DNA of 32,227 nucleotides, from NCBI GenBank assembly GCA_026706735.1, contig JAPOYD010000133.1:1-32227 (forward strand), in the 5' to 3' direction. Shown here one piece after another: positions 3,050-31,501 of this stretch. How positions within the stretch are numbered: position 1 is the stretch's first letter; each line of letters opens with the position of its first letter. This DNA comes from Nitrospinota bacterium. GTDB lineage: Bacteria > UBA8248. The position numbers and the translations under genes are program-made. Below the pieces are notes generated by a model that searched no databases, had not been told where the DNA came from, and saw nothing but the letters and a program-made list of their open reading frames with translations.

Positions 3050-3079
3050 TTGACCATTCAAAACCTGCAATCTTATAGT
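3050..3079 (+). promoter_or_regulatory. Sigma-70-like promoter for the sel cluster
   Basis: TTGACC (3050-3055) and TATAGT (3074-3079) are each one base from consensus and are separated by 18 bp. They lie about 30 bp before the ATG chosen for selA. The TTG inside the -35 box is in frame with selA and would look like a start codon, but promoter position, ribosome site and family length all favour the ATG at 3110. Confidence 0.55.
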
Positions 3080-3109
3080 CATCCATCGTATTCATATAAG
3101 GGATGCGGC

Positions 3110-4552: not shown

Positions 4553-4610
4553 TCATCAACCATCTGTGCAATAATTTTTTTGCCATCACGAAAAAGGGGA
4601 CAATTTTCCG

Positions 4611-5414
4611 ATGCCAACCGTTAATTCCGATGGCGTTGCCATAGATTATGAAGTCATCAACCCCGAGCATACCGATACGCCTGTATTCCTAATCACCGGA
4701 CTGGGGGGCATTCGCGGTATATGGATGAATCAAATCGACGCCTTTTCCGCGACCAGACCCCTCATCCTCCATGACCATAGGGGAACGGGAAAAAGCGCGA
4801 AACCGAGCGGGGTTTATAGCGTCCCCAACATGGCGAAAGATATCATCGCTATCATGAATGATCTTGAAATAGAACAAGCGCATCTCGTCGGCAGTTCAAC
4901 CGGGGGAGCCATTATTCAAGTCATGTGTATTGATTATCCCGAGCGTGTAAAAAGCGGGTCTATCGTAAGTTCCTGGCCCAAGAGCGACGCATATTTCACC
5001 CGCCAGTTCAGCGTGCGCAAAGAAGTCCTGCTTGAGATGGGATGGGAACCTTACACGAGATTTTCCACATTTACCCTGCATAGCCCAAAGTTTTTCACCG
5101 ACAACTTTCAGGAAATTCAATTGCAGGAAAACCAATCGATCGCCAACGCGCCTCCGGCTGAAATTATGGCCGAGAGAATCGACTGCATTATTGCGCATGA
5201 CCAGTTAGACCGCCTTGGTCAAATCACATGTCCTGTGCTGGTGGCAGTTGCCAGAGACGATGTCGTCACTCCGCTGTACTATTCCCATCAATTGAGTGAT
5301 GCCATCCCTGGAGCTGAACTGAAAATTTTTGATGAAGGCGGCCATTTCGTATATATCGAGAAACCGGTTGAATTCAATGAGTCCATCCTGGAATTTATCC
5401 ATCGACATGACTAA
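4611..5414 (+). CDS. Alpha/beta-hydrolase fold protein between selA and selB
   Basis: This 267-residue protein has the alpha/beta-hydrolase fold and probably hydrolyses a small ester, lactone or carbamate in the cytoplasm. The oxyanion-hole strand is FLITGLGG, followed by HDHRGTGKS. The nucleophile elbow is GSSTGG with Ser96. The acid lies in VARDDVVTP and the histidine in EGGHFVYIEKP near the C-terminus. No signal peptide is seen. The pattern is closest to 3-oxoadipate enol-lactonase/RutD-like hydrolases, but the substrate cannot be assigned. It lies 58 nt after selA and 48 nt before selB, in the same orientation and similar AT-rich composition, so it is probably co-transcribed. It is not a known part of selenocysteine insertion, which makes its place between selA and selB unusual. 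Confidence 0.88.
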   Translation: MPTVNSDGVAIDYEVINPEHTDTPVFLITGLGGIRGIWMNQIDAFSATRPLILHDHRGTGKSAKPSGVYSVPNMAKDIIAIMNDLEIEQAHLVGSSTGGAIIQVMCIDYPERVKSGSIVSSWPKSDAYFTRQFSVRKEVLLEMGWEPYTRFSTFTLHSPKFFTDNFQEIQLQENQSIANAPPAEIMAERIDCIIAHDQLDRLGQITCPVLVAVARDDVVTPLYYSHQLSDAIPGAELKIFDEGGHFVYIEKPVEFNESILEFIHRHD

Positions 5415-5462
5415 TCGATATTTTCATAACTCGCCTATCAACCACGAAGGCGAAACCACTTT

Positions 5463-7373
5463 ATGAAACACGTTGTCATCGGAACCGCCGGCCACATCGA
5501 TCACGGCAAAACCTCTCTCGTCAAAGCATTGACCGGTACAGACACCGACCGCCTCAAAGAGGAAAAAGAACGCGGCATCACCATCGAGCTCGGGTTCGCT
5601 GAGTTGATTCTTGATAATGTCCACGCAGGCATCGTGGACGTTCCGGGTCATGAGCGATTCGTAAAAAACATGCTGGCGGGAGTCGGCGGCATCGATTTGG
5701 TCATGCTGATCGTTGCTGCCGATGAAGGCATCATGCCGCAAACGAGGGAACATTTGTCCATTTGCCGACTTCTCGGTGTTAAAACCGGACTCATCGTACT
5801 CACCAAAACGGATCTGGTCGAACCGGAATGGGTTGAACTTGTGACGGACGATATACAGGACTTCGTCAAAGATACTTTCCTGGAAGAAAAACCCATCGTT
5901 CCGGTTTCGGCTCACACTGGAGATGGTCTGGAAAATCTCGAAAAAGCTTTGCACGAAATCGCAAATCAAACACCCGCAAAAAGTGAAACGGGTATCTTTC
6001 GAATTCCAATTGACCGCGTCTTCACGATGCGGGGCTTCGGTGTCGTGATTACGGGAACTTTGTTCAGTGGAAGTGTGGCTGTTGGCGAGCAGGTTGAAGT
6101 TTATCCCAAGGCTCTTCAGGCGCGCGTTCGGGGCTTGCAAGTTCATGGGGAGCCCGTGGAAAAATCGACTGCAGGCCTCAGAACCGCTGTGAACCTTCAG
6201 GGTCTCGAACGCACTGATGTGTTCAGAGGAGACATCATTGGTCATCGTGGTGAACTGAAAACGACGTACATGCTCGACGTTCTTCTGGAACATCTGGCCG
6301 ATGCCCCTCGTCCGTTAAAAACCCGGAATCGCATTCGGTTCCATGCAGGTACAGCTGAAATCATGGGCAGAATTTCACTCATCGGACGAGATGTACTCGA
6401 ACCGGGAGATAGCACTTTTGCTCAAGTACGACTCGAAGAACCTATCGTCGTACTTCCCAGAGACCGGTTCGTCATCCGGAGTTATTCGCCAATCATCACG
6501 TTAGGTGGTGGGGAAATCTTGGATATCATGCCTCGCAAGCATAGACGATTAAGAAGTTCATCCATCGACCACCTGAAATCACTTTATCAGGGGGATGAGA
6601 CGGAAAGACTGCTCATATTGCTTCGGGACTCACGTTTGAACGGGGTTGAACTCGAAGACATCACAGGCCGTCTGACACTAAAACCGAGCGATATACAAAA
6701 AATCATTCAAGAATTATCAGCCCATGGAGAAGTGCAGATTATCGACCAAGCCAATTTCTTCTCCATGACTAGAGCGCATTTCAAAACAGCCCAAAATAAT
6801 ATTCTCTCTTTTTTGAGTAACTATCATGCTGAAAACCCTCTTCGCACAGGGGCGCCCAGGGAAGAAGTTCGCGGCAAGGCGGGTGACATCAATGAAAAAA
6901 TCTTCGCAGCTGCACTCAAGCATTTAAACGAATCAAACGAAATCGTTGAAAATGGCGCCATCCTAAGACTCGCTTCCCATTCAGTAGAAATTGATGAAAC
7001 GCTCGGAGAAGTGAAAACAAAACTAGAGACGATTTTCAAAAACGCCCATTTTCAACCGCCATCCGTCGAAGACGCATTCTCACTAAACGGCGGTCAAGGC
7101 AATTCAAATCAAAATGCCCTGCAAATTCTCATCGACGAAGGTGCTTTGTTGCGACTGAAGGACAACATTATCTATCATGAAAATGCTTTAAGCGAAGCAG
7201 AAAAATTTCTCAGAGAACATCTGTCGCAAAACAACGAAATTACGGCGGCGGAATTTCGGGATCTGTTGGGCATTACCAGAAAACACGCCATACCTTTGCT
7301 TGAATATTTTGATACGGCGCGTATTACACTGCGAGTAGGAGATAAGAGAGTAATTCGTCCAGACGCAAGATAA
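5463..7373 (+). CDS. selB: Selenocysteine-specific translation elongation factor
   Basis: SelB is the GTPase that carries selenocysteinyl-tRNA to UGA codons next to a SECIS hairpin. In this 636-residue protein the G1 loop is [12 protein letters not shown] (Lys16), then RGITIELGF (switch I), DVPGHE (G3) and TKTD (G4). EF-Tu-like domains II and III follow ([17 protein letters not shown]). The C-terminal half, from about residue 370, is made of winged-helix repeats, ending with [31 protein letters not shown] split across the last two helices; these bind the SECIS RNA. Length is normal. The ATG has no strong ribosome site, so translation may depend on coupling. Its presence with selA indicates that the organism makes selenoproteins encoded outside this window. 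Confidence 0.96.
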
Positions 7374-7395: not shown

Positions 7396-8583
7396 ATGCC
7401 TCTCGATAATCATAAAATCCAACGGTTGCGGGCAGATGTCCCGGCCCTGGCCCATCAAATTTACGTAAATTGGGGTGGCGGGGGCCCATCCTCTAAATCG
7501 ATTCTTCATGAAATGGACAAGTTCACGAAACGCGAATTAGAACTCGGCTCATTTCACCCGAAAATCAGGAATGAAACCACAAAGGCCCTGAAACGTACAC
7601 GAGAGAGCTGCGCAAAACTCATCGACGCAGAAGCCTCGGAAATAGCCCTGACAGGGAATACAACGGTCGGAATTAACATCGCGGCTTCCGGATTAACTTG
7701 GAATTCAGGGGACGAGGTGATTGTCTCGGATTTGGAGCATCCAGGCGGCTACCTCCCCTGGTTGGTATGGCGGAAGAGAAATCCCATCAAGGTGAAACTG
7801 TTCAAAACCGGTCAAAACGATGAGCAACTTCTCCAAAATCTGGAAAACGCTATCACCCCAAACACAAGGGTGGTTTGCGTGAGCCATATTTCGTGGCTGA
7901 ATGGCAGGAGACTTCCACTAGCGGCAATCGGCCGAATCTGCGTCTCCGCAGGTGCCCTCCTCATCGTAGATGGCGCCCAGTCCGTAGGACACATACCAGT
8001 CAAAATCAAAGACACCGGCGTAGATGTCTACACCATATCAGGCCAGAAATGGCTGATGGGTCCGGATGGCACGGGCGCTGTGTATATAAGGCGTGGAGCA
8101 GGTAAAAAGATTCAGCTTTCATCTGCAAGCTTTCGCTCAGCTGAAAAAAAGAGATTAAAAACCCTGTCTTTTACCCCTGAGCCGAGTGCGATGCGCTATG
8201 AAGTCGGCACTCTCAATACACCTGGGTTCATTGGATTACGGACTGCGGTCGAACACTTCAAGAGAACAGGGCCCGTATCCATTGAAATAAGAATTCTGGC
8301 ACTCGCGAATCGCCTGCTGTCCCAAATCCGCGGGAGCAGGAACGTTGAAGTCATTACGCCCGAAGGCGAGGCGCAGTCTGGTCTGGTTTCCTTTCGGATC
8401 AAGAACGTCGAATCTCAAAACGTGGTGGACAGGCTATACAGAAAACACCAAATCATCCTCCGGGCAGTGGTCACGGAGCCTCCCGCAGTGAGAGTTTCGA
8501 TTCATTATTTGAACACGGAAGAAGAAATGGACTCGATAGCGAACGCGATAGCTACAATAGCTGCCGGCAGAAGAAAACAATAA
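7396..8583 (+). CDS. Class V aminotransferase, cysteine desulfurase/Sec lyase-like but lacking the catalytic cysteine
   Basis: This 395-residue PLP enzyme has the NifS/SufS/isopenicillin-epimerase fold: YVNWGGGGPSS, ALTGNTTVGINIAASGL, SDLEHPGGYLPW, VDGAQSVGH and SGQKWLMGPDGTG with the PLP lysine at Lys218. In SufS-type desulfurases a cysteine sits in a loop of the form R-x-G-x-x-C near the C-terminus. Here the corresponding segment reads ILRAVVTEPPAVRVSIHY, with no cysteine. Sulfur transfer by the standard persulfide route is therefore unlikely. Selenocysteine lyase, C-S lyase or epimerase activity remains possible. It begins 22 nt after selB and is followed by a terminator, so it looks like the last gene of the sel cluster. 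A role in supplying selenium is an attractive but unproved inference. Confidence 0.85.
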   Translation: MPLDNHKIQRLRADVPALAHQIYVNWGGGGPSSKSILHEMDKFTKRELELGSFHPKIRNETTKALKRTRESCAKLIDAEASEIALTGNTTVGINIAASGLTWNSGDEVIVSDLEHPGGYLPWLVWRKRNPIKVKLFKTGQNDEQLLQNLENAITPNTRVVCVSHISWLNGRRLPLAAIGRICVSAGALLIVDGAQSVGHIPVKIKDTGVDVYTISGQKWLMGPDGTGAVYIRRGAGKKIQLSSASFRSAEKKRLKTLSFTPEPSAMRYEVGTLNTPGFIGLRTAVEHFKRTGPVSIEIRILALANRLLSQIRGSRNVEVITPEGEAQSGLVSFRIKNVESQNVVDRLYRKHQIILRAVVTEPPAVRVSIHYLNTEEEMDSIANAIATIAAGRRKQ

Positions 8584-19687: not shown

Positions 19688-20194
19688 GGCTCCAATCTCC
19701 TCTGTAGATTGGGCATTCCCGCTGGCTTGAATTGTCGGCCACCGGCCGGAACCGGATGACCGACAATATTTTATGAACTGCACAGGATGAGAGAATTATA
19801 CATGACTTCGAGATCAGGCACAAACTTCTCGACGAGCGTTCCCTGGAGCACATCCGCCGTGGCTCGCGATTCTTCAACGAAGAATTGCCTGATGGACCGG
19901 GCCGCAATGAATTGATTGACTTCCGTGATTTGTGCCTCATTGGTTGTGTCCAGCAAACGGCGAAGCGCAAGATGTGGAATGAAGTTATCCGTCCGAAATC
20001 GACCGAAGATGAGCGCAGGGGGCTGTAATTGAGAAAGGAGTGGTGAAAGCCTCGCCGTATATCCGTCCCATCCGGCGCGGCTCTCATCGCCAATGGCAAC
20101 GACGCGTTATATAGTTCGACATCACGAATCACCGCACGCCGGGAACGCCCTGTGCGACAAATCCACGAACTCTCAAAAACCGGGAGCCGATTCA
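19688..20194. other. Intergenic region upstream of the deaminase operon
   Basis: This region should contain the operon promoter, but I could not single one out. It also contains overlapping open frames on the two strands with protein-like composition and no start codon in the right place, described separately as a possible relic. The stretch from about 20093 to 20194 is in frame with the acetyltransferase but shows no family match and is treated as upstream DNA. Confidence 0.4.
19771..20090. pseudogene. Possible gene relic, strand unresolved
   Basis: Plus strand, 19777-20028: 83 codons open from a stop, reading ...DERIIHDFEIRHKLLDERSL... and ending ...KSTEDERRGL, with no ATG or GTG near its beginning. 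Minus strand: about 105 codons ending at 19771, reading ...RAGWDGYTARLSPLLSQL... then RRLLDTTNEAQITEVNQF and ...VPDLEVMYNSLILCSS, again without a start until a TTG at 19956. Both look more like protein than random frames, but at most one is likely to be real. I recognise neither. A decayed gene is the simplest explanation. Confidence 0.3.
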
Positions 20195-20740
20195 TTGAAC
20201 AAGGCCGACTCGAATGCCGGGCCGCTCGTCCGCGACGCCACCGAAGATGACCTGCCCGCGGTACAGGAGATATACGCCCACCACGTGCTGCATGGCGTGG
20301 CCACGTTCGAGGAGAAGCCGCCCGATTTGGAGGAGATCCGCCGACGCTTCCGCGCCGTAAAAGAGAAAGGCCTCCCCTGGCTCGCCGCGGAGGTGGAAGG
20401 CGCCGTCTGCGGCTACGCCTATGCGGCGCCCTACCACCACCGGCCGGCCTACCGCTTCGCCGCCGAAAATTCCGTCTACGTCGATCATCGCGTCATGCGC
20501 CAGGGGCTGGGTGCTGCGCTGCTCGACAGGTTGATCGACTCTTGCGCCCGAAAGGGCTTGCGCCGGATGGTCGCCGTCATCGGCGACAGCGCGAATGCGG
20601 CCTCCATCAGGCTGCACGAGCGCGCCGGTTTCCGGCTCGTCGGCGTATTGCCGTCGGTCGGCTTCAAGCACGGCCGATGGCTCGACTGCGTGATCATGCA
20701 GCGCGCGCTCGGTGATGGCGACGGGACTTTGCCTTCTTGA
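20195..20740 (+). CDS. GNAT N-acetyltransferase, phosphinothricin acetyltransferase-like
   Basis: This 181-residue acetyltransferase of the PAT/MnaT type transfers acetyl from acetyl-CoA to a small amino compound such as methionine sulfoximine or a related toxic amino acid. Visible: VRDATEDDLPAVQEIYAHHVLHGVATFEE split over the first helix and loop, LAAEVEGAVCGYAYAAPYHHRPAYRF, SVYVDHRVMRQGLGAALL with the acetyl-CoA-binding RQGLGAAL, NAASIRLHERAGF, and VGFKHGRWLDCVIMQ at the end. The chosen start is TTG, preceded by GGGAG 9 nt upstream, because it gives the usual 170-180 residue length. An ATG at 20093 would add 34 residues with no family match. It stands alone in front of a broken toxin-antitoxin locus. 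Confidence 0.87.
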   Translation: MNKADSNAGPLVRDATEDDLPAVQEIYAHHVLHGVATFEEKPPDLEEIRRRFRAVKEKGLPWLAAEVEGAVCGYAYAAPYHHRPAYRFAAENSVYVDHRVMRQGLGAALLDRLIDSCARKGLRRMVAVIGDSANAASIRLHERAGFRLVGVLPSVGFKHGRWLDCVIMQRALGDGDGTLPS

Positions 20741-21414: not shown

Positions 21415-23031
21415 CTACACCCCCAGGATGTTCTTCGCGGTCTCCCGCGCCTCCTCCAGCGTCTCGACGATACGCTCCCCGGGCACCCCTCGCAGGACGT
21501 CGAGGGCGCGCAAGGTGTGCGCGACGTCGCCCCCGAGGCCCATCACGACGAACGCGGTGCGCTCCTGCGCGGCGACGTCCATGAGCCGCCTGATGAGCAT
21601 GGCGGCGCTGTCGTCGAGATGAGTGGCTTCCGAGAAATCGAAGATGACGACCTCGTGATCCTTGATGTCCGCGCTGATGGCCGCGACCAGCTCATGGGAT
21701 GAGGCGACGGTGAAGCTCCCCCGGAGCCCCACCAGGCCGACGCGCGCCGCATAGGGGTTCACGGCAACCGGCTCCTTCGCCTCACCGAAAAATATATTGT
21801 CGAGCATCGGCACGGATACCACGTTGTCGATCTCCAGGCGCTCGAGGTGCCGCGCGTGGGCCATCCCGGCGGCGATGAGGCCGATGGCCACGGCGGTCAG
21901 CAGGTCGACGAACACCGTGAGGCCGAGCGTCATCAGCATGACGAAGAGATGCTCGCGCCGGATGTGGCGCAACCGCGCGAGCAGCCGCCAGTCGATGATG
22001 TCCCAGCCCACCTTCATCAGCACGCCCGCGAGGGCGGCGAGCGGAATCGACTCGACGTACCGACCCAGGCCCAGCAGGAGCGCCAGCAGCAACACGGCGC
22101 GCAAGACGCCCGAAACCGGCGTCTGCCCGCCCGCGCGGATGTTCGTCACCGTGCTCACGGTGGCGCCGGCGCCGGGCAGTCCGCCGATGAGGCCCGCGGC
22201 CATGTTGCCGATCCCCTGCCCCACCAGTTCGCGGCTCGGATTGTGGCGCGAGCCGGTCAGCGAATCGGCCACCAGGGCGGCGAGGAGGCTGTCGATGGAG
22301 CCCAGCAGGGCGAGAACGATCGCGGGCTGCAGGGCCCCCACCAGGAAACCGGCGGAGGGCAGACCCAGTTGCAGTCCCGGCAGGCCGGCGGGCATCCGCC
22401 CGATGGTGGGCGCTTCATTCAGCCACAAGACGCCCAGAAACCAGCCTACGAGAAGCGCCATCAGCGGAGGAGGCAGAAACCTCGCAAAGCGGCGCGGCCA
22501 GAAGGCGAAGACGGCGAGCGCGGCGGCGCCGACGCCCAGGGCGTCAAGGTTGATCCGGGCCAGCGCCTCGGGGAGCGCGCGGATTGCGCCCATGAAGCCG
22601 CCCGGCGCGGGCGGCGCGCCGAGAAAGGGCAAAGCCTCGATCGCCAGAATGATGACGCCGATGCCGGACATGAAGCCCGAGACGACCACATGGGGCGTGT
22701 AGACCACGAAGCGCCCGGCACCCAGCGCGCCCAGAAGCACCTGCAGCAGGCCGCCCAGAACGACGATGCTCAGCGCCTCGGTGAGGTTCGCCGCGTGGGT
22801 GGTGACGATGACCGCCATGGCGACGGTCATCGAAGGCGCAGGTCCCGAGATGATGGCTCGCCCGCCGCCGAAGAGCGCCGCGAAAAAACCGAGCGCTATC
22901 GCGCCGTAAAGCCCCGCCGCCGCGCCGAGCCCTGAGGCCACGCCGAAAGAAAGCGCGAAGGGCAGCGCCACCACCGTCGACGTGAGACCGCCGAAGACGT
23001 CTCCGCGAAGCGTCTTGAGATCATAGTTCAC
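21415..23031 (-). CDS. SulP/SLC26 transporter with STAS domain, copy 1 (last in the array)
   Basis: A 538-residue SulP anion transporter: 12-14 membrane segments to about residue 410, then a cytoplasmic STAS domain (THLDDSAAMLIRRL). It is closest in pattern to cyanobacterial BicA, a sodium-driven bicarbonate transporter (GDVFGGLTS, FGVASGLGAAAGLYGAI). At positions lining the BicA substrate/sodium site it keeps Asp247 (GSIDSLLAA) and GAGAT (Thr291), but has Ala251 where BicA has threonine, and SGPAPSM in place of SGPTAPM (Ala65). The start is GTG with GGAAG upstream. It follows copy 2 by 40 nt, so the two are co-transcribed. Sulfate or other oxyanions are alternatives to bicarbonate. Confidence 0.9.
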   Translation of the reverse strand: MNYDLKTLRGDVFGGLTSTVVALPFALSFGVASGLGAAAGLYGAIALGFFAALFGGGRAIISGPAPSMTVAMAVIVTTHAANLTEALSIVVLGGLLQVLLGALGAGRFVVYTPHVVVSGFMSGIGVIILAIEALPFLGAPPAPGGFMGAIRALPEALARINLDALGVGAAALAVFAFWPRRFARFLPPPLMALLVGWFLGVLWLNEAPTIGRMPAGLPGLQLGLPSAGFLVGALQPAIVLALLGSIDSLLAALVADSLTGSRHNPSRELVGQGIGNMAAGLIGGLPGAGATVSTVTNIRAGGQTPVSGVLRAVLLLALLLGLGRYVESIPLAALAGVLMKVGWDIIDWRLLARLRHIRREHLFVMLMTLGLTVFVDLLTAVAIGLIAAGMAHARHLERLEIDNVVSVPMLDNIFFGEAKEPVAVNPYAARVGLVGLRGSFTVASSHELVAAISADIKDHEVVIFDFSEATHLDDSAAMLIRRLMDVAAQERTAFVVMGLGGDVAHTLRALDVLRGVPGERIVETLEEARETAKNILGV

Positions 23032-23071
23032 GGAAGGAAGCCCTTCGCCATCATATGACGCATCCTCCGCC

Positions 23072-24694
23072 TCAAATTCCCAGGAGAGGCTTCGCGACCT
23101 CTCGCGCCTGGTCCAGGTTTTCGAGGATTCGCTCCTGTGGCACCTCCCGCAGGACGTCGAGTGCGTCGAGCGTCTCCGCGACGTCGCCCGAAAGCCCGAT
23201 GACGATGGACTCGGTATCTTCTTCCGTGGCGACTTCGATGAGTTGCTTGATGACCATGGCGGCGCTGTCGTCGATGTAGGTGGCTTCGGTGAAATTGAAG
23301 ATGACGATCTCGTGATCCTTGATGTCCAGGCTGATCGTCCGGACCAGTTTTTTGGACGACGCGACAGTGAAGCTCCCCCGGAGCGCCACCATGCCGACGC
23401 GCGCCTCGAACGGGTCGACCCCCTCCACCTCTTCCCCCTCGTAGAGGAACATCTGATCCAGCAAGGGCACGGAGACGACGCTGTCGAGCTCCAAGTTCTC
23501 GAGCTGCCCCGCGTGGGCCAGACCCGCGACGATGAGGCCTATCGCCACGGCGCTGATCAGGTCGACGAACACCGTGAGGCCGAGCGTCGTCAGCAGGACG
23601 AAGAGGTGTTCCCGCTTGATGCGGTGAAGACGGGTCAGGAGACGCCAGTCGATGATGTCCCAGCCGACCTTGATCAGGACACCCGCCAGAGCGGCGAGCG
23701 GAATCGACTCGACGTAGGGCCCCAGACCCAGCAGGATCGCCAGCAGGAAAAGCGCGAATATGGCGCCCGCCGCCCGGGTCCGCCCGCCGGCGCGTATGTT
23801 GGGCACCGTGTATACCGGGGTGCCCGCGCCGGGCAGTCCGCCGATTAAGCCCGCGGCCGCGTTGCCCACGCCCTGGCCGATGAGTTCGCGGTCCGGGTCG
23901 TGGCTCGTGCGGGTGAGCGAGTCGGCCACGAGGCAGGTGAGAAGGCTCACCACCGAGCCGATCAGGGCGAGAATGAGCGCGGGCTCCACGGCGCGCGCCA
24001 GAAAGCTCAGGGAGGGCAGCCCCAGTTGCAGCCCCGGCAGGCCGGTCGGCACCTCCCCGATGACGGGCGCATCACTTAGCCACAAGACGCCGATGAGCGT
24101 GCCGGCGAACAGCCCCACCAGGGGAGTGGGCAGGATTTTCCTAAAGCGCGGCGGCCAGAAGACCGCGACGCCGAGCGTGACGACGCCGACGCCGAATGCG
24201 CTCGGGTTGATGTGTTTCAGCGCCTCGGGCAGCGCGAGAATCATGCCCACGGCCCCGCCCGGCACGGGGTCCGAGCCGAAAAAGGGCAGCACCTGAATCG
24301 CCATCACGAGGACGCCGATGCCGGACATGAATCCGGAGACGACCACGTAGGGCGTGTAGGCCACGAAGCGGCCGAGCTTCAACACGCCCAGAAGCGCCTG
24401 GAGCAGACCGCCCAGCACGACCACCGTCAGGGCTTGGGTCAGGTTTTCCGCATACGTGGTGATGATGACCGCCATCACGATGGCCATCGGTGCCGTGGGA
24501 CCGGAAATCTGGGTCTGCGTGCCGCCGAAGACCGCCGCGAAAAAGCCCACCGCTATCGCGCCGTAGAGGCCCGCCGCAGCCCCCATGCCCGAGGCCACGC
24601 CGTAGGCCAGAGACAGCGGCAAGGCCACCACCATGGCGGTGACGCCGCCGAAAAGGTCTCCGCGAAGCGTATCGAAATCGTATTTCAATTTCAC
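23072..24694 (-). CDS. SulP/SLC26 transporter with STAS domain, copy 2
   Basis: The 540-residue paralogue has the same layout: membrane domain with FGGVTAMVVALPLSLAYG and ISGPTAPM, and a C-terminal STAS domain with YIDDSAAMVIKQL. The sodium-site aspartate is replaced by Val249 (GSVVSLLTC), and the facing loop is GAGTP (Pro293 at the position of the threonine in GAGAT). These changes are shared with copy 3 and suggest altered or lost cation coupling; compare SLC26A5/A9, where valine replaces the acidic residue of coupled exchangers. The start is GTG with GAAGGGG about 10 nt upstream; a TTG two codons later is possible. It lies 179 nt after copy 3. Confidence 0.9.
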   Translation of the reverse strand: MKLKYDFDTLRGDLFGGVTAMVVALPLSLAYGVASGMGAAAGLYGAIAVGFFAAVFGGTQTQISGPTAPMAIVMAVIITTYAENLTQALTVVVLGGLLQALLGVLKLGRFVAYTPYVVVSGFMSGIGVLVMAIQVLPFFGSDPVPGGAVGMILALPEALKHINPSAFGVGVVTLGVAVFWPPRFRKILPTPLVGLFAGTLIGVLWLSDAPVIGEVPTGLPGLQLGLPSLSFLARAVEPALILALIGSVVSLLTCLVADSLTRTSHDPDRELIGQGVGNAAAGLIGGLPGAGTPVYTVPNIRAGGRTRAAGAIFALFLLAILLGLGPYVESIPLAALAGVLIKVGWDIIDWRLLTRLHRIKREHLFVLLTTLGLTVFVDLISAVAIGLIVAGLAHAGQLENLELDSVVSVPLLDQMFLYEGEEVEGVDPFEARVGMVALRGSFTVASSKKLVRTISLDIKDHEIVIFNFTEATYIDDSAAMVIKQLIEVATEEDTESIVIGLSGDVAETLDALDVLREVPQERILENLDQAREVAKPLLGI

Positions 24695-24755
24695 GCGATT
24701 ATGCCCCTTCGCGCTTCGTCCCCGGGCGATGGTCGTGATGATCGCATGTTCTTCG

Positions 24756-24781
24756 ACAGCATATCACACCCCCGGCGAATC
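24756..24781 (-). promoter_or_regulatory. Conserved leader block, SulP copy 2
   Basis: The block GATTCGCCGGGGGTGTGATA followed by TGCTGT matches those upstream of copies 3 and 4 but sits farther (about 60 bp) from the start codon, and the rest of the leader differs. The TGTGATATGCT part may be a -10 region; no good -35 is visible. Confidence 0.4.
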
Positions 24782-24873
24782 GTGGGTGAGCGCCGGAAGG
24801 AGCCGTGAAGGCGAACGTGTAAGCACCCGCGCCGCCGGAATGAATTCCCCGGGGGAGGAGGACGCCTCCCGCC

Positions 24874-26490
24874 TCAATCTCTCAGGAGAGCTCTCGCCGT
24901 CTCTCGCGCCTCGTCGAGTGTTTCGACGATACGCCCCTCGGGCACGCTCCAGAGGATATTGAGCGTTTCAAGAGTGTGCTTCACTTCGCCCGAAATCCCG
25001 AGGATGATGGACTCGGTATCTTCTTCGGTGGCGACGTCGATGAGCTGCTTGATGACCATGGCGGCGCTGTCGTCGATGTAGGTGGCTTCGGTGAAATTGA
25101 AGATGACGACCTCATGATCCTTGATGTCGAGGCTGATCGCCCGGACAAGTTTTTTTGACGAAGCGACGGTGAAGCTCCCCCGGAGCGCCACCATGCCGAC
25201 GCGCGCCTCATACGGGTCGACTCCCTCCGCATCCTCTCCTCCGTAGAGGAACATATCGTCCAGCAGGGGCACGGAGACCACGCTGTCGAGTTCGAATCTT
25301 TCGAACTGCCCCGCGTGGGCCAGGCCCGAGACGATGAGGCCTATCGCCACGGCGGTGATCAGGTCGACGAACACCGTGAGGCCGAGGGTCGTCAACATGA
25401 TGAAGAGATGTTCGCGCCGGATGCGGTGAAGATGGCAGAGCAGACGCCAATCGATGAGATCCCAGCCCACCTTCATCAGAACGCCCGAGAGGGCGGCGAA
25501 AGGAACCGACTCGACGTACGGCCCGAGGCCCAACAGGGTCGCCAGCAGGAGGAGCGCGAATATGACGCCCGCCGCCCGGGTCCGCCCGCCGGCGCGTATG
25601 TTGATCACCGTGTATACGGGCGTCCCGCAACCGGGCAGGCCGCCGATGAGGCCCGCGGCCGCGTTGCCCAACCCCTGGCCGATGAGTTCGCGGTCCGGGT
25701 CATGGCTCGTGCGGGTCAGCGAGTCGGCCACGAGGCTGGTGAGGAGGCTGACCACCGAGCCGACCAGGGCGAAAATGAGCGCGGGCTCCACCGCGCGCGC
25801 CAGCATGGCCAGAGAAGGCAGCCCGAGCTGCAGCCCCGGCAACCCGCTCGGAATCTTCCCGAGGGTGGGCGCGCCGTTCAGCCACGCCACGCCCACGAGC
25901 GTGCCGGCGAACAGCCCCACGAGCGGCGTGGGCAGGATTTTCCGGTACCGCTGCGGCCAGAAGACCACGGCGCCGAGCGTGACGGCGCCCACCCCGAAAG
26001 CGCTCGAGTTGATTTCGTCCAACGCCTCGGGCAGCGCGAAAACCATACCCACGGCCCCGCCGGGCACGGGGTTGGATCCCAAAAAGGGCAGCACCTGAAT
26101 CGCTATGATGATGACGCCAATTCCCGACAGGAAGCCCGAAACGACCAGGTAGGGCGTGTAGGCCACGAAGCGGCCGAACTTCAACACGCCCAGAAGCACT
26201 TGGAGGAGACCGCCCAGAACGACTATCGTCAAGGCTTCAGTGAGATTTTCCGCGTACGTGGTGATGATGACCGCCATGACGACGGTCATCGGCGCGGTGG
26301 GGCCGGATATCTGGGTCGGCGTCCCGCCGAAGAACGCCGCGAAAAAGCCCACCGCTATCGCGCCGTAGAGGCCCGCCGCCGCGCCCATGCCCGCCGCCAC
26401 GCCGTAGGCCAGCGAAAGCGGCAAGGCCACCACCATGGCGGTGACGCCGCCGAAAAGGTCTCCGCGAAGCGTATCGAAATCGTATTTCAA
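24874..26490 (-). CDS. SulP/SLC26 transporter with STAS domain, copy 3
   Basis: The 538-residue paralogue is closest to copy 2. It has ISGPTAPM intact, Val247 in GSVVSLLTS instead of the BicA-like aspartate, and GCGTP (Cys288, Thr290, Pro291) instead of GAGAT. The STAS domain holds YIDDSAAMVIKQL. The start is TTG at 26490: it gives the same N-terminus (KYDFDTLRGDLFGG) as the paralogues and is preceded by AGAGGA. An upstream in-frame start would add 22 residues read from the conserved leader DNA. It lies 153 nt after copy 4. Whether it carries bicarbonate, sulfate or something else is unknown. Confidence 0.9.
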   Translation of the reverse strand: MKYDFDTLRGDLFGGVTAMVVALPLSLAYGVAAGMGAAAGLYGAIAVGFFAAFFGGTPTQISGPTAPMTVVMAVIITTYAENLTEALTIVVLGGLLQVLLGVLKFGRFVAYTPYLVVSGFLSGIGVIIIAIQVLPFLGSNPVPGGAVGMVFALPEALDEINSSAFGVGAVTLGAVVFWPQRYRKILPTPLVGLFAGTLVGVAWLNGAPTLGKIPSGLPGLQLGLPSLAMLARAVEPALIFALVGSVVSLLTSLVADSLTRTSHDPDRELIGQGLGNAAAGLIGGLPGCGTPVYTVINIRAGGRTRAAGVIFALLLLATLLGLGPYVESVPFAALSGVLMKVGWDLIDWRLLCHLHRIRREHLFIMLTTLGLTVFVDLITAVAIGLIVSGLAHAGQFERFELDSVVSVPLLDDMFLYGGEDAEGVDPYEARVGMVALRGSFTVASSKKLVRAISLDIKDHEVVIFNFTEATYIDDSAAMVIKQLIDVATEEDTESIILGISGEVKHTLETLNILWSVPEGRIVETLDEARETARALLRD

Positions 26491-26570
26491 GCGCTGAGTC
26501 CTCTCGCATATTTCATCGCCGAGAACGCGTATGGGCGTTCGCCCACAGCATATCATACCCCCGGTGAATC
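26491..26570 (-). promoter_or_regulatory. 80-bp conserved leader, SulP copy 3
   Basis: This leader differs from the one before copy 4 at only five of 80 positions and has the same length. On the minus strand it holds TATGATATGCT (possible -10), a small hairpin GGGCG-AA-CGCCC, and a nine-codon frame ATGAAATATGCGAGAGGA... whose TGA overlaps the TTG start by two bases. The AGAGGA in that frame is the likely ribosome site. A promoter plus 5' leader is the best reading. Confidence 0.5.
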
Positions 26571-26643
26571 TTGGGCGAGCGTCTGAAGGCGCAACGAAAG
26601 CGCCCTCATCGCCGCGAGCATACGGCGCGCGGAAGCTCCTGTT

Positions 26644-28260
26644 TCAATCTTTGAGGAGGGTTTTGGCGAATTCCCGCGCCTCGTCCAGGGTTTGGAGGAG
26701 ACGCCCCTCGGGTATGCTCCGCAAGATATTGAGCGTCTGAAGAGTATGGGCGACGTTGCCCGCCAGGCCCATCAGGATGTATTCGGTCCGCTCCTGATCG
26801 GCCACTTCGAGGAGTTGCTTGATGACCATGGCGGCGCTGTCGTCGATGTAGGTGGCGCCCGAGAAATCGAAGATCACCACTTCATGATCCTTGATGTCCG
26901 CGCCTATCATCTGGACCAGTTTATGGGAGGATGCGACGGTGAAGCTCCCCCGGAGCGCCACGAGGCCGACGCGCGCGGCAAACGGATCCACCATGTCCAC
27001 GTCCTCGAATTCCGAGAAGAATATGTGATCCAGCATCGGCACGGAAACCACGCTGTCGAGTTCGAGGGTTTCCAGTTGACGCGCATGGGTCATGCCGGCG
27101 GCGATCAGCCCTATCGCTACGGCGCTTATCAAATCGACGAACACCGTGAGGCACATCGTCATCACCATGACGAAAAGATGTTCGCGCCGGATGCGGTGAG
27201 CGATGGAGAGAAGATACCAGTCGATGATGTCCCAGCCGACCTTCATCAGGACGCCGGCGAGAGCGGCGATGGGAATCGGCTCGACATACGGCCCGAGACC
27301 CAGCACGAGCGCCAGCAGGAGCAGGGCGCGCAGCGCGCCCGAGGCCCGCGTCCGCCCGCCGGCGCGGATGTTGGTCACCGTGCCCATCGTGGCGCCCGCG
27401 CCGGGCAGCCCGCCGATGAGTCCGGCAACCATGTTGCCGATCCCCTGGCCTATGAGTTCGCGGTTCGGGTTGTGGCGCGTGCCCGTAAGTGAATCGGCCA
27501 CCAGAGACGTCAGGAGGCTGTCTATGGAGCCGAGCAGGCCGAGGATGAGCGCGGGCTCCACGGCGCGCGCCAGAAAAGCCGGGGAGGGCAGCCCGATTTG
27601 CATCTCCGGCAGGCCGGTCGGCACCTTTCCGATGACGGGAGCGTCGCTCAGCCACACGACGCCCAGCAGCGAACCCACTGCGAGCGCCACCAGGGGAGCG
27701 GGGAGAAACCTCGCGAACCGTCGGGGCCAGAACACGCAGACGGAGAGCGCCACGACCGCGATGCACAAGGCGTCCGCATTGACGTTCGCCACTGCGTCGG
27801 GCAGCGCGAGTGCCGCGCCCAAGGCTCCACCCGGCGCGGGGGGAGCTCCGAAAAAGGGCAGGAACTGAATCAGCATGACGATGACGCCGATGCCGGACAT
27901 GAAGCCTGAGACAACCACGTAGGGCGTGTAGGTAACGAAGCGGCCGACCCCCGATACACCCATAAGAATTTGCAGCAGGCCGCCCAGCATGACCACCGTC
28001 AGGGCTTCGGCGAGATTTTCCGCGTGACTGGTGATGATGACCGCCATGACGACGGTCATCGGCGCGGTGGGGCCGGATATCTGGGAGCGCGTGCCGCCGA
28101 AGACCGCCGCGAAAAAACCCACCGCGATCGCGCCGTAGAGGCCCGCCACGGCCCCCATGCCCGACGCCACGCCGAAAGCCAGCGAAACAGGCAGCGCCAC
28201 CACCATGGAGGTGACGCCGCCGAAGAGGTCTCCGCGAAGCGTATCGAAATCGTATTTCAA
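26644..28260 (-). CDS. SulP/SLC26 transporter with STAS domain, copy 4 (first in the array)
   Basis: The 538-residue paralogue keeps the complete BicA-like site: Thr65 in SGPTAPM, Asp247 and Thr251 in GSIDSLLTS, and GAGAT with Thr291. The 44-residue spacing between Asp247 and Thr291 equals that of Asp258 and Thr302 in BicA as I recall it. This is the best candidate in the array for sodium-coupled bicarbonate uptake. The STAS domain has YIDDSAAMVIKQL. The start is TTG at 28260 with AGAGGAA upstream, matching the paralogue N-termini; an upstream in-frame start would add 64 residues read from repeat-rich DNA. It is the promoter-proximal gene. Confidence 0.9.
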   Translation of the reverse strand: MKYDFDTLRGDLFGGVTSMVVALPVSLAFGVASGMGAVAGLYGAIAVGFFAAVFGGTRSQISGPTAPMTVVMAVIITSHAENLAEALTVVMLGGLLQILMGVSGVGRFVTYTPYVVVSGFMSGIGVIVMLIQFLPFFGAPPAPGGALGAALALPDAVANVNADALCIAVVALSVCVFWPRRFARFLPAPLVALAVGSLLGVVWLSDAPVIGKVPTGLPEMQIGLPSPAFLARAVEPALILGLLGSIDSLLTSLVADSLTGTRHNPNRELIGQGIGNMVAGLIGGLPGAGATMGTVTNIRAGGRTRASGALRALLLLALVLGLGPYVEPIPIAALAGVLMKVGWDIIDWYLLSIAHRIRREHLFVMVMTMCLTVFVDLISAVAIGLIAAGMTHARQLETLELDSVVSVPMLDHIFFSEFEDVDMVDPFAARVGLVALRGSFTVASSHKLVQMIGADIKDHEVVIFDFSGATYIDDSAAMVIKQLLEVADQERTEYILMGLAGNVAHTLQTLNILRSIPEGRLLQTLDEAREFAKTLLKD

Positions 28261-28340
28261 GCGCTGATTCCTCTCGCATATTTCATCGCCGAGAATGCGT
28301 ACGGGCATTCGCCCACAGCATATCATACCCCCGGCGAATC
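28261..28340 (-). promoter_or_regulatory. 80-bp conserved leader, SulP copy 4
   Basis: Nearly identical to the leader of copy 3 (five differences). It carries the same TATGATATGCT tract, the GGGC/GCCC hairpin and the same short frame overlapping the TTG start. Similarity stops abruptly at the upstream edge, marking the end of the duplicated unit. Confidence 0.5.
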
Positions 28341-28381
28341 GCAGGCGCGGGCGGAATTGTTGAAAAACCCTCGTCAATATC

Positions 28382-28604
28382 CCGAGCAAGCGCCCCGAAC
28401 CCTCATCCTGAGTAGGCGCGTAAGCGCCGTATCGAAGGATGGGGGAGTGCATTTTTCCAGCGGGCGCGAATTTCGCCCTTCGATACGCCGCCTTCGGCGG
28501 CTACTCAGGGTGAGGAAGGTGGGGAGACAGCGGAGCCTGCCCCGAGCGAAGTCGAGGGAGCCTGTCCTGAGCCTGTCGAAGATCCGCTGCTCAGGGTGAG
28601 GCGG
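28382..28604. repeat. Cluster of CCTGAG/TCGAAGG palindromic repeats
   Basis: Copy one (about 28382-28443, plus) has CCTCATCCTGAGTAG, an inner hairpin GGCGCGTAAGCGCC and GTATCGAAGGATGGGG. Copy two (about 28477-28522) is the inverse, with a different inner hairpin GCCGCCTTCGGCGGC. A third, degenerate copy (about 28560-28604) has CCTGTCCTGAGCCTGTCGAAG. The frame is conserved while the inner stem differs but still pairs. Such CCTGAG/TCGAAGG repeats are common between genes in many proteobacteria. Confidence 0.7.
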
Positions 28605-28765
28605 AACGGCGGACTGCGCAGGATGGGGAGGGGGATTGCGCCGCATCAAGCTTTTCCAACAACTCCGCGCCCGAGGCCCCATGCGCCCGCTTCCCCGTAT
28701 GCGCTGATTAGTGGTATGAATGGCGCGGCTTTATCGTTCAACCATTCCCCCACGCTGGAATCCGC

Positions 28766-29950
28766 ATGAGCGCCTACGCCAACATCCTCATCATCGCGTC
28801 GAGCCATTCGGTGAACTCGCTATACAACCGGATTCTGACGCCCATCCTCCCGCTCATCATGGCGGATTTCGGCCTGAACTACGCGCAGACGGGCCTCATC
28901 GCCTCGGTCTACGCCCTCTCCAGCAGCCTGTTTCAGCTGCCGATCTCCTTTCTGGGCGATTTCACCGGAAAAACCCGCCTGATTCTTGGGCTTTCTCTTC
29001 TCTTCAACGCCCTGCCCGCCTGGTTCTACGGCTACTCCACTACCTATGCGGCGCTACTCACCTTCGTCTTCCTGAGCGGCCTGGGGTGTTCGGCCTATCA
29101 CCCGGCGGCGGTCTCGATGATCGCCGCAGAAAGCCCCAGAAACCGCGGCCTCGCCATGGGGCTTTTCAAGGCGGGCGGTGATTTCGGCAGCATCCTGACG
29201 CCCGTGGCCATGGGCTGGCTCACGGTCTATCTCGCGAGTTGGCGGGCGGCGGCGCAGTATTTCGTCCTGCCCGGCGTCGTTTGCGCCCTGCTTATCTGGC
29301 TGCGATTTCAGGACGCGCCCGGCAGGCGGCAATCGATGGCGAAAGAGGCCCGCTCCACTTTCAGCGAACTATTGGGCGATAAATTCATGATCCTGATGAC
29401 GCTGCTCTCCTCCTGCCGGGTGATGGGCCTGCGCGGCATCATGACGTTCCTGCCCCTTCTGCTGGCCGAGGGGCTGGGGCTGGGCACCATCGAGGTGGGC
29501 TGGGCGATCACGGCTTATTTCCTCGTCGGCACCGTCTTCGCCGTGATATGGGGAAAATACACCGACCCCAGGAACGAAACGCGCATCATCCTCTTCATGA
29601 TGGCGACGAGCGCCGCCTCCCTCGCTTTCCTGTCGCAGGCCGAATCCGTGATCGTCTTCTTCGGCCTGCTCGCGCTTCTGGGCGCGTGCCTCAATCCCTC
29701 CCAGAGCCTCATGCTCACGCTGACCACCGGCGTGGTTCGCGAGAAAAACCGCACGAGCGCCATCGGCCTCATGTACACGGCGAACGAGGCGGCCTCGGTC
29801 ATGTCGCCCTTCCTCGGCGGCCTCATCGCACAGGCGGTGGGACTCAGGCAATCGTTTCTCTTCTACGCCGTGCTCTGTCTCATCGCCACGAGCCTCGCCT
29901 GGCTCATCCACGCCGAGCAGAAAAGACGCGCGCGCGGGGGCGCCGCCTGA
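28766..29950 (+). CDS. Major facilitator superfamily transporter
   Basis: The 394-residue protein has about 12 hydrophobic segments in two halves joined by a charged loop (RFQDAPGRRQSMAKEARSTF, near residues 180-200). The N-terminal half has the MFS pattern LPLIMADFGLNYAQTGLIAS, then GDFTGKTRLILG in the loop 2-3 position of motif A, and GCSAYHPAAVSMIA. The C-terminal half has GKYTDPRNETRIIL. It resembles the fosmidomycin-resistance/Fsr-like and cyanate-permease-like MFS exporters, but the substrate cannot be given. It starts at ATG with only GGAA upstream. It faces away from the SulP array, with a dioxygenase gene 109 nt downstream. Confidence 0.88.
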   Translation: MSAYANILIIASSHSVNSLYNRILTPILPLIMADFGLNYAQTGLIASVYALSSSLFQLPISFLGDFTGKTRLILGLSLLFNALPAWFYGYSTTYAALLTFVFLSGLGCSAYHPAAVSMIAAESPRNRGLAMGLFKAGGDFGSILTPVAMGWLTVYLASWRAAAQYFVLPGVVCALLIWLRFQDAPGRRQSMAKEARSTFSELLGDKFMILMTLLSSCRVMGLRGIMTFLPLLLAEGLGLGTIEVGWAITAYFLVGTVFAVIWGKYTDPRNETRIILFMMATSAASLAFLSQAESVIVFFGLLALLGACLNPSQSLMLTLTTGVVREKNRTSAIGLMYTANEAASVMSPFLGGLIAQAVGLRQSFLFYAVLCLIATSLAWLIHAEQKRRARGGAA

Positions 29951-30059: not shown

Positions 30060-30968
30060 ATGAGCACGAAAAACACTCTCGATAGTCTGGAGGTTGTGCC
30101 GACGGGCGCCGCCCTGGGCGCGGAGATCAGGGGCGTCGACCTGTCCGCACCCATGTCCGAGGAGGTGAAGGGAGCCCTGCGTGACGCGTGGACGGAGCAC
30201 CTCGTGCTCCTGTTCCGGGACCAGGAGATGACCGAGGAGCAGCACCTCGACGCCACGCGCATCTTCGGCGAAGCCGTCGTGCCCGCCGCCAAGGCCTACT
30301 ACGACAAGGCCGGGAAACAGCAGACCTGGGCGGCCAAGTACGCCGAGATTACCGTCGTCCACAATCTGGACGAGGACGGAAATCCCGTGCAGCAGAACGA
30401 AAGCCTGGGCTCCGGCGAGGTCGTCTGGCACAACGACAACTCCTACGCCGAGAAACCGCCCGCGGGCAGCATGCTCTACGGGCGGAGGCTGCCGCCATCG
30501 GGCGGGAACACCTGCTTCAGCAACCAGTACATGGCCTACGATACCCTGCCCGAGGACGTGAAGCAGAAAATCGAGGGCAAGACCGCCGTCCACGACGCGA
30601 GCCGAAACTCCGCGGGCACGCTCAGGCCTGGCGTCAAGCTGCCGACGAAGCCCTCGGAAGTTCCCGGGCCGCACCATCCCCTCGTGTGCACGCACCCCGA
30701 ATCGGGCAGACGCGCGCTCTACCTGGGCCGCAGAAGGACCTATCCCTCCCAGTACATCGACGACATGGAAGAGGGGGAGAGCGAGGAACTCCTCGACTTC
30801 CTCTGGGATCACGCCTGCCGCGACGAACTCGTCTGGGCGCACGTCTGGCGGCTGGGCGACGTGCTGCTCTGGGACAACCGCTGCACCATGCACTACCGCG
30901 AACCCCACGCGGGCACGCACCCGCGCCTGATGCACCGCACCCAGATCGAGGGCGCCCAGCCGGTGTAG
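30060..30968 (+). CDS. TauD/TfdA-family Fe(II)/2-oxoglutarate dioxygenase
   Basis: The 302-residue enzyme couples oxidation of 2-oxoglutarate to hydroxylation of an unknown substrate; family members act on taurine, phenoxyacetates, carnitine precursors and others. N-terminal VPTGAALGAEIRGVDLSAP and HLVLLFRDQEMTEEQH are standard. The facial triad is visible: VVWHNDNSY supplies His and Asp (H-x-D), and RCTMHYRE supplies the distal His. RLMHRTQI holds the Arg that binds the 2-oxoglutarate carboxylate. Length is normal. The ATG has AGGAG 9 nt upstream. It lies after an MFS gene and before an M24 peptidase; catabolism of a small organic compound is plausible. Confidence 0.93.
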   Translation: MSTKNTLDSLEVVPTGAALGAEIRGVDLSAPMSEEVKGALRDAWTEHLVLLFRDQEMTEEQHLDATRIFGEAVVPAAKAYYDKAGKQQTWAAKYAEITVVHNLDEDGNPVQQNESLGSGEVVWHNDNSYAEKPPAGSMLYGRRLPPSGGNTCFSNQYMAYDTLPEDVKQKIEGKTAVHDASRNSAGTLRPGVKLPTKPSEVPGPHHPLVCTHPESGRRALYLGRRRTYPSQYIDDMEEGESEELLDFLWDHACRDELVWAHVWRLGDVLLWDNRCTMHYREPHAGTHPRLMHRTQIEGAQPV

Positions 30969-31033: not shown

Positions 31034-31192
31034 CTTTTCACTCCCCCCTTGAGGGGGAGTCAGCAAGACGAGGGCATAAGCCCGAAGTCGCGCTGGTGGG
31101 GGGAGATTTTTTAGTCTGCGGCATGTCCCCCCACCGAATCGGCCTTCGCCAAAGGCTCGGCCTCTTCGACTCCCCCTCAAGGGGGGAGTTTA
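31034..31192. repeat. Inverted pair of palindromic repeats, same family as the left end
   Basis: A plus copy (about 31036-31107) and a minus copy (about 31126-31190) share the CTCCCCCCTTGAGGGGGAGT core and the GGTGGGGGGA end with the pair at 5-235. Here the spacer is only about 20 bp and has no hairpins, which shows that the 95-bp spacer of the other pair is extra material. Confidence 0.8.
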
Positions 31193-31217
31193 TTGTTCGC
31201 ACATCAACAGGGTGACC

Positions 31218-31293
31218 GTAGGGACAGGCCCCTGTGCCTGTCCTGACGAAGGACCACCATAGGACAGGGACAACCACGGAGGGTTGTCCCTAC
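31218..31293. repeat. Palindromic element with GTAGGGACA/TGTCCCTAC ends
   Basis: The outer inverted repeats enclose two different inner hairpins, GGACAGGC/GCCTGTCC on the left and GGGACAACC/GGTTGTCCC on the right. The design matches the element at 21284-21356. Confidence 0.7.
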
Positions 31294-31501
31294 GCTTCAC
31301 GACACAGATTCCCCAAAAACTCTCTCACCGCGCCCGATATATGGAACGAATTACCGAAATTCAGACCCCCGCTTCGCTTTTCAGGCTCGGGCCGATTTGA
31401 TAGGCTTCCCCAAATCGACATAACGCGGATCGCTCAGGAGCGCCGAAGCCGGCAGGGGCATTTCGGCCCCCTCCGGATCCCCCTGCTTTGAGGAACGCAC
31501 C

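Follow-up and report, generated by a model that had tools for sequence, protein, structure and literature searches.

BicA (PDB 6ki1), a SulP-family protein that transports bicarbonate in a Na+-dependent manner in cyanobacteria, binds HCO3- through Thr69, Ala301 and the Na+ ion, which itself is held by Asp258, Thr262, Gly300 and Thr302 (review, PMC13249358). The H+-coupled SulP proteins AtSULTR4;1 and SLC26Dg have a Glu at the acidic position in TM8, and in a profile alignment Arg393 of AtSULTR4;1 falls on BicA position 304. SLC26 proteins are dimers with functionally interacting protomers (PMC6497670). The TM8 acid is absent from the mammalian SLC26 proteins except A11, coupled exchangers included, and the proteins without it are mostly exchangers or channels with no cation cotransport (PMC8298490). 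In the exchanger SLC26A6 a TM10 Arg gives the anion site its shape; SLC26A9 has a valine instead, a replacement that goes along with uncoupled transport of Cl- and poor binding of bicarbonate (PMC10328499). For SLC4 carriers, Na+ has been proposed as a stand-in for a missing Arg (PMC8191340). Which residues set a Na+ drive, an H+ drive or no drive in the SLC26/SulP family is a mechanistic question that also is relevant to the human SLC26 proteins.

Four tandem BicA-like SulP genes

The window analyzed here is a 32,227-nucleotide stretch (positions 1 to 32,227 of contig JAPOYD010000133.1, assembly GCA_026706735.1) of a draft metagenome-assembled genome (MAG) from a member of a Nitrospinota group (191 contigs, 93.7% complete, 3.2% contamination). 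It carries four minus-strand SulP genes, transcribed in the order c1, c2, c3 and c4 (Table 1). PF00916 was found above the cut-off in all four copies by profile search; a STAS domain (PF01740) was matched after it in c1 and c3, and c2 and c4 align over the full length. By this domain test, c1 to c4 are members of the SulP/SLC26 anion transporter family, and the four tandem SulP and STAS genes of about 540 residues described by a first-pass annotation were recovered as open reading frames. Longer ATG-start frames exist for c1 (602 aa) and c2 (560 aa). These ATGs probably are mis-starts, because both genes have a downstream TTG at an LKYDFD motif that is preceded by AGAGGA, because the c3 orthologs start (with GTG) at the place of that TTG, and because the c1 and c2 sequence further upstream aligns with the noncoding leader of c3. 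With the TTG starts of c1 (28260) and c2 (26490), all four proteins are 538 to 540 aa long. Pairwise identity ranges from 65 to 83%; c2 and c3 are the closest pair, and c3 and c4 are 66% identical.

Table 1. Features of the SulP array and its surroundings (positions in the window)
Feature	Position	Strand	Evidence or remarks
c1, BicA-like SulP, 538 aa	26644..28260	-	PF00916 and PF01740; site residues; TTG start
c2, Val-type SulP, 538 aa	24874..26490	-	V258, T301, P302, Y304, F322
c3, Val-type SulP, 540 aa	23072..24694	-	Sister-species orthologs 93-96% identical
c4 SulP, 538 aa	21415..23031	-	D258/A301/T302 present; T69A, T262A, S263A, Q141E, S304
c3-c4 intergenic gap, 40 nt	23032..23071	-	Sister-species gaps similar in length
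c1+c2 block, ~3.85 kb	24798..28650		blastn/tblastn synteny
Upstream element before c1, CGGGGGTATGATATGCTGT-like	~28320..28345	-	Upstream-region alignment; coordinates approximate
c2 counterpart of CGGGGGTATGATATGCTGT-like element	~26550-26575		Coordinates approximate
c3 counterpart of CGGGGGTATGATATGCTGT-like element	~24760-24790		Coordinates approximate
MFS transporter, divergent	28766..29950	+	PF07690; syntenic with SulP pair in sister species
TauD/TfdA-family Fe/2-oxoglutarate dioxygenase	30060..30968	+	PF02668; syntenic neighbor

The array is flanked by a GNAT gene on one side and by a divergent MFS/TauD-family gene pair on the other. The PDB relatives of the TauD/TfdA-family gene are phenoxypropionate and taurine dioxygenases. 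Rfam and tRNA searches of the window returned no matches.

In the PDB, c1, c2 and an AlphaFold2 model of c3 all matched BicA best. The c3 model (pLDDT 79, pTM 0.70, input alignment of 37) matched 6ki1 with a TM-score of 0.76 on the target at 46% identity; the model backs the fold rather than the details of the site. Length, the STAS domain and the TM3/TM8/TM10 pocket are common to BicA and the array. In contrast to BicA, the array and its relatives are found in noncyanobacterial MAGs, and the scores against the BicA equivalog profile (NCBIfam NF050096; 495.5, 471.6, 479.9 and 448.5 bits for c1 to c4, respectively, with a cut-off of 880 bits) classify all four proteins as BicA-like but not BicA. 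These scores, far below the equivalog cut-off, make bicarbonate a tentative substrate assignment even for c1. A search for beta-carbonic anhydrase (PF00484; beta class only) gave no match in seven genomes of the genus, which weakens the case for a carbon-concentrating role. A sulfate load driven by sulfatases was not favored, as only 2 to 4 sulfatase matches were found per genome.

The array probably comprises three transcription units

The first-pass annotation assigned the four genes to one operon. The gaps between them are 151 nt (c1-c2), 180 nt (c2-c3) and 40 nt (c3-c4), and an alignment of the regions upstream of c1, c2, c3 and four orthologs revealed a CGGGGGTATGATATGCTGT-like element approximately 65 to 90 nt upstream of c1 that is also present before c2 and c3. 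The element is kept before the c3 orthologs despite the divergence of the surrounding sequence. A scan of the upstream regions for the sigma-70 consensus matched nothing. With gaps that are not uniformly short and a conserved element before each of c1, c2 and c3, a single four-gene operon with one promoter is unlikely and was set aside; c1, c2 and c3-c4 appear the likeliest three units. Cotranscription of c3 and c4 is probable because their gap is short and similar in the sister species.

Three of the four copies depart from the BicA pocket

The copies were aligned to 6ki1, and site residues are numbered as in BicA. The translations contain GSIDSLL and GAGAT in c1 and c4 and GSVVSLL and G(A/C)GTP in c2 and c3, as first annotated, with the same 44-residue spacing between the site residues in all four. 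These motif-variable residues map onto Asp258, Ala301 and Thr302 of BicA; the first-pass annotation had named the aspartate and the threonine as the sodium site. All six BicA ligands (T69, D258, T262, G300, A301, T302) are present in c1, a set identical to that of BicA. Both c2 and c3 retain T69, T262 and G300 and carry V258, T301 and P302; c4 retains D258, A301 and T302 and carries A69 and A262. None of these three has the full set. The c4 substitutions, T69A at a bicarbonate ligand and T262A at a sodium ligand, are the same in 6/6 genus members examined. The proposed division into two Asp and two Val copies thus holds for the motifs but not for the site as a whole: c4 is not equivalent to c1, and a two-plus-two functional split was rejected on account of its two substitutions. 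Within the c3+c4 pair, each variable ligand is held by exactly one partner.

The pocket otherwise is nearly invariant. Among 73 Asp-type BicA-like SulP references (58 to 77% identity), the ligands read T-D-T-G-A-T in 69 and T-D-T-G-S-T (A301S) in 4, and against this background the sequences of the Val and c4 clades depart in two distinct ways. In the Val clade, 17 of the 196 columns conserved in Asp types switch, 3 of the 6 ligands among them (hypergeometric P, 0.009), and in the c4 clade 10 conserved columns switch, including 2 of the 6 ligands (P, 0.03); both P values take columns as independent and are based on few sequences. The Val-clade switches include 258, 301, 302, 304, 322 and the TM1 positions 29 and 33. 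Position 304 is Gly in Asp types, Tyr in Val types and Ser in c4 types. We looked for another acidic residue that might serve the site of c2 and c3, and the sequence check found none gained in the ligand segments of the Val clade, where acids were gained only in the protein ends, loops and STAS domain. The alignment, together with the conservation of the Val type across three phyla, gives good support to the view that c2 and c3 have lost the sodium site. A charge pair between 258 and 322 was considered and rejected, since 12 Asp-type sequences also lack R322; R322 also is missing from every nonacidic lineage except N-S-A-S-A.

Comparison with mammalian and H+-coupled SLC26 proteins

AtSULTR4;1 and SLC26Dg share the fold, dimer type and position of the TM8 acid with the array. 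SLC26A9 and prestin resemble the Val type in having a nonacidic TM8 residue (for prestin, a valine by sequence profile only), and SLC26A9 also resembles it in having no TM10 Arg. The first-pass annotation had drawn a different parallel, in which a valine of SLC26A5/A9 replaces an acid found in coupled exchangers. That parallel names the wrong residue, as the SLC26A9 valine replaces the TM10 Arg (PMC10328499), and the acid is no mark of coupled exchangers, which in mammals lack it too (PMC8298490). As in SLC26A9, neither the TM8 acid nor the TM10 Arg is present in c2 and c3 (V258, Y304), which makes an analogy and not membership of a mammalian subfamily. Identity to these mammalian proteins is 15 to 20%, and the Val type arose within the BicA-like bacterial clade and has intact Asp-type sisters there. 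Asp types, too, have no TM10 Arg (Gly304).

Distribution and synteny

Relatives of the array proteins were found in MAGs of Gemmatimonadota, Chloroflexota, Acidobacteriota, Pseudomonadota, Nitrospinota, Deinococcota and other phyla. Many come from samples whose prefixes we take to be those of sponge metagenome projects, and many of the hosts presumably are sponge associated; the bacterium of the window presumably is of a kind that occurs in marine sponges. In five of the six same-genus genomes, a Val gene adjoins a c4-type gene (in genome G005 the Val gene is split across two contigs); neither gene was seen in the sixth, which is 79% complete. The sister species with array genes (5/6) hold the c3+c4 pair only. 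Flanking synteny is retained in four of them, and there c1 and c2 are not found between c3 and the MFS gene; the synteny comparison gave no c2 ortholog at the equivalent place. The c1+c2 segment therefore is an extra block, seen only in the genome of the window.

Outside the genus, three MAGs had Val types: one of Immundisolibacterales, one of another gammaproteobacterium and one of Truepera. Each of them also has an Asp-type SulP on another contig. No further match at the Val level was found among 369 sampled genomes of the class. An acidobacterial MAG (L052) has a tandem pair of an Asp type and a His type; in two of the three His-type genomes no Asp partner was detected. Outside the window's genome, no partner gene was shared among the neighbors of the Val and His types. 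No other four-gene array was found; Asp-type relatives usually occur as one copy per genome, with a tandem pair at most.

Evolution of the site

In the protein tree all nine Val-type sequences form one clade (support, 100/100) whose neighbors are c1, the c4 clade and the Truepera Asp type. Val and His each replaced the aspartate a single time, and Asn did so on three occasions; further variants are a Tyr-type paralog (L154) and a Glu type (L055). The suggestion that changes at the site go together was borne out in most, though not all, of the losses. Positions 301 and 302 also changed in the Val lineage, 301 in the His lineage, 262 and 302 in one Asn lineage (L056), and 300 to 302 plus 69 and 262 in another (L162/L163), but no other ligand changed in the third (L156/L157). 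Because the Val clade is monophyletic, the paired changes in c2 and c3 are a single evolutionary event.

Within the genus, dN/dS is 0.09 to 0.15 for the c3 (Val-type) orthologs and 0.14 to 0.23 for the c4 orthologs; the Val-type orthologs are under strong purifying selection. Between c2 and c3 the ratio is 0.33, with synonymous divergence (0.32) like that between species, which suggests divergence at the protein level after duplication. The tree instead has c2 as the earliest branch of the Val types, a weakly supported position (82/40), and any age given to c2 is tentative. Over their first 80 codons c1 and c2 share 90 to 92% identity, which is lower further on and suggests gene conversion at the 5' end.

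Discussion

The explanation we favor, with somewhat better than even confidence, is that the array encodes BicA-like paralogs of which c1 would be Na+ driven, c2 and c3 Na+ independent and c4 altered. All four would be elevator-type anion carriers of the BicA-like branch of SulP/SLC26. With its complete Na+/HCO3- pocket, c1 most likely is a BicA-style Na+-driven anion (bicarbonate) symporter. BicA appears to place Na+ where other family members place Arg. In c2 and c3 the carboxylate for Na+ (D258V) and the Na+/HCO3- ligands of TM10 (A301T, T302P) have been lost, and a Tyr occupies position 304, an Arg in the SULTR and SLC26 exchangers. Without a Na+ site or an Arg, the two known ways of supplying positive charge where the anion binds, c2 and c3 most likely are Na+-independent anion carriers derived from a BicA-like symporter, working by exchange or uniport. 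Their anion binding would be weak and dipole based, in that respect resembling uncoupled SLC26A9. For c4, which lacks Thr69 and Thr262, substrate and/or cation affinity probably is changed, and with a bicarbonate-contact Thr and one Na+ ligand gone it may carry a different anion. It may be speculated that in the His type a protonated His replaces Asp plus Na+. The earlier proposal of two coupled and two uncoupled carriers made from one operon is not supported, as it conflicts with the c4 losses and the three apparent units. Since three of the four copies lost different parts of the pocket, the powering or the cargo of the family may have changed.

The complementary ligand losses of c3 and c4 raise an alternative that we regard as unlikely but worth weighing, namely, an obligate c3/c4 heterodimer made of protomers that have each lost part of the canonical pocket, one of them mainly scaffolding or regulating the other. 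The genes are adjacent across their short gap and kept together in the genus, SLC26Dg heterodimers of wild-type and locked protomers match wild-type activity (PMC6497670), and the acidobacterial Asp+His pair is a second tandem pair in the family. However, each SLC26 protomer has a full transport pathway, so complementary losses would rebuild no site; moreover, the Val gene and its Asp partner are on different contigs in the other three genomes, the His type mostly has no detected Asp partner, and c3 and c4 are only 66% identical. The stricter version, in which two protomers with complementary losses act as one obligately heteromeric SulP carrier, we judge quite unlikely; such dimer logic for bacterial SLC26 proteins is not described in the literature searched.

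We think it similarly improbable that all four copies are Na+ coupled and differ in affinity or substrate, with the Val types binding Na+ via T262, backbone carbonyls or other residues. The fold and STAS domain are intact and c2 and c3 retain T69, T262 and G300, and the backbone, T262 and G300 could still coordinate Na+, but the site has no carboxylate other than the lost D258, the Thr302 hydroxyl is missing too, and no acid was gained in the ligand segments. No more likely is specialization of c2 and c3 by substrate rather than by uncoupling, either as H+-coupled carriers or as carriers of a different, bulkier or organic anion. The switches at TM1 (29 and 33), 304 and 322 touch the whole anion site, and the syntenic MFS and TauD-family genes could tie the pair to organic or sulfur anions; yet these genes are divergent from the SulP genes, and the Val type has no protonatable residue in place of D258. 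Redundant or decaying duplicates, or an assembly artifact, would fit a draft MAG of 191 contigs in which c1+c2 occur in one genome only, but we consider this explanation highly improbable given that the frames are open, that dN/dS within the genus is low, that three phyla have the same residues, that a single contig carries syntenic flanks at either side, and that the copies differ from one another by 17 to 35%.

Within one bacterial family, then, the coupling Asp has been lost repeatedly, to Val, His or Asn and often in a genome with an intact sister copy; in a third class the Asp stays and other ligands are gone. Selectively maintained natural site variants on a common backbone make a direct comparison possible. 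As judged from sequence, the coupling site of the BicA-like SulP family has been remodeled repeatedly, with a Val and c4 pair that is conserved in the genus, and the functions that we infer from it suggest that the BicA-like transporters of sponge-associated bacteria have diversified beyond bicarbonate uptake.

Other ORFs of the window

The start of the window carries homologs of selA and selB together with an associated aminotransferase gene; no tRNA-Sec was found within the window (32,227 nt). Searches of the 746-aa ORF at 604-2844 against Pfam and NCBIfam returned no matches, and long ORFs also are present on the opposite strand, so this ORF may not be a real gene. Comparison with sister species revealed that the GNAT acetyltransferase gene next to the SulP array retains its synteny with the array.

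Features of the window and SulP genes of other genomes (contigs L052 and L154)
Feature	Position	Remarks
746-aa ORF	604-2844	No Pfam or NCBIfam match
selA and selB homologs	3050-7373	PF03841; SelB winged helices
Class V aminotransferase	7396-8583	Accompanies selA/selB homologs
GNAT acetyltransferase, ArsN1/phosphinothricin type	20093-20740	Adjoins SulP array; scores under curated cut-offs
Palindromic repeat, ~120 bp, CCTCATCCTGAGTAG...CTACTCAGGGTGAGG	28395-28520	Between first SulP gene (c1) and MFS gene
Inverted repeats, 22-nt perfect and 27-nt imperfect arms	31040-31294	Intergenic, downstream of TauD-family gene
Tandem Asp-type and His-type SulP pair	L052:254-3595	Acidobacterial MAG
Third SulP of gammaproteobacterial MAG, very divergent	L154:498-2387	Tyr at 258, Trp at 262 (BicA numbering)

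SulP variants in other genomes

SulP genes with His at BicA position 258 were found, beyond the acidobacterial pair, in a MAG labelled Aminicenantes and in a third genome. Chloroflexota/SAR202 MAGs (contigs L058, L068 and L112) carry two Asp-type genes in tandem, the second copy having A301S and Pro at 303 (GAGSTPGS).

Repeats around the SulP array

In one sister species (G005), contigs L011 and L040 both end inside the Val-type gene, a break that possibly reflects a repeated copy at this position. Palindromes resembling the one between c1 and the MFS gene of the window are located upstream of the Val-type gene in a sister species. The palindrome of the window has 84 matches across its own genome (both strands counted, many partial), so it is classed as a dispersed REP/MITE-like element.
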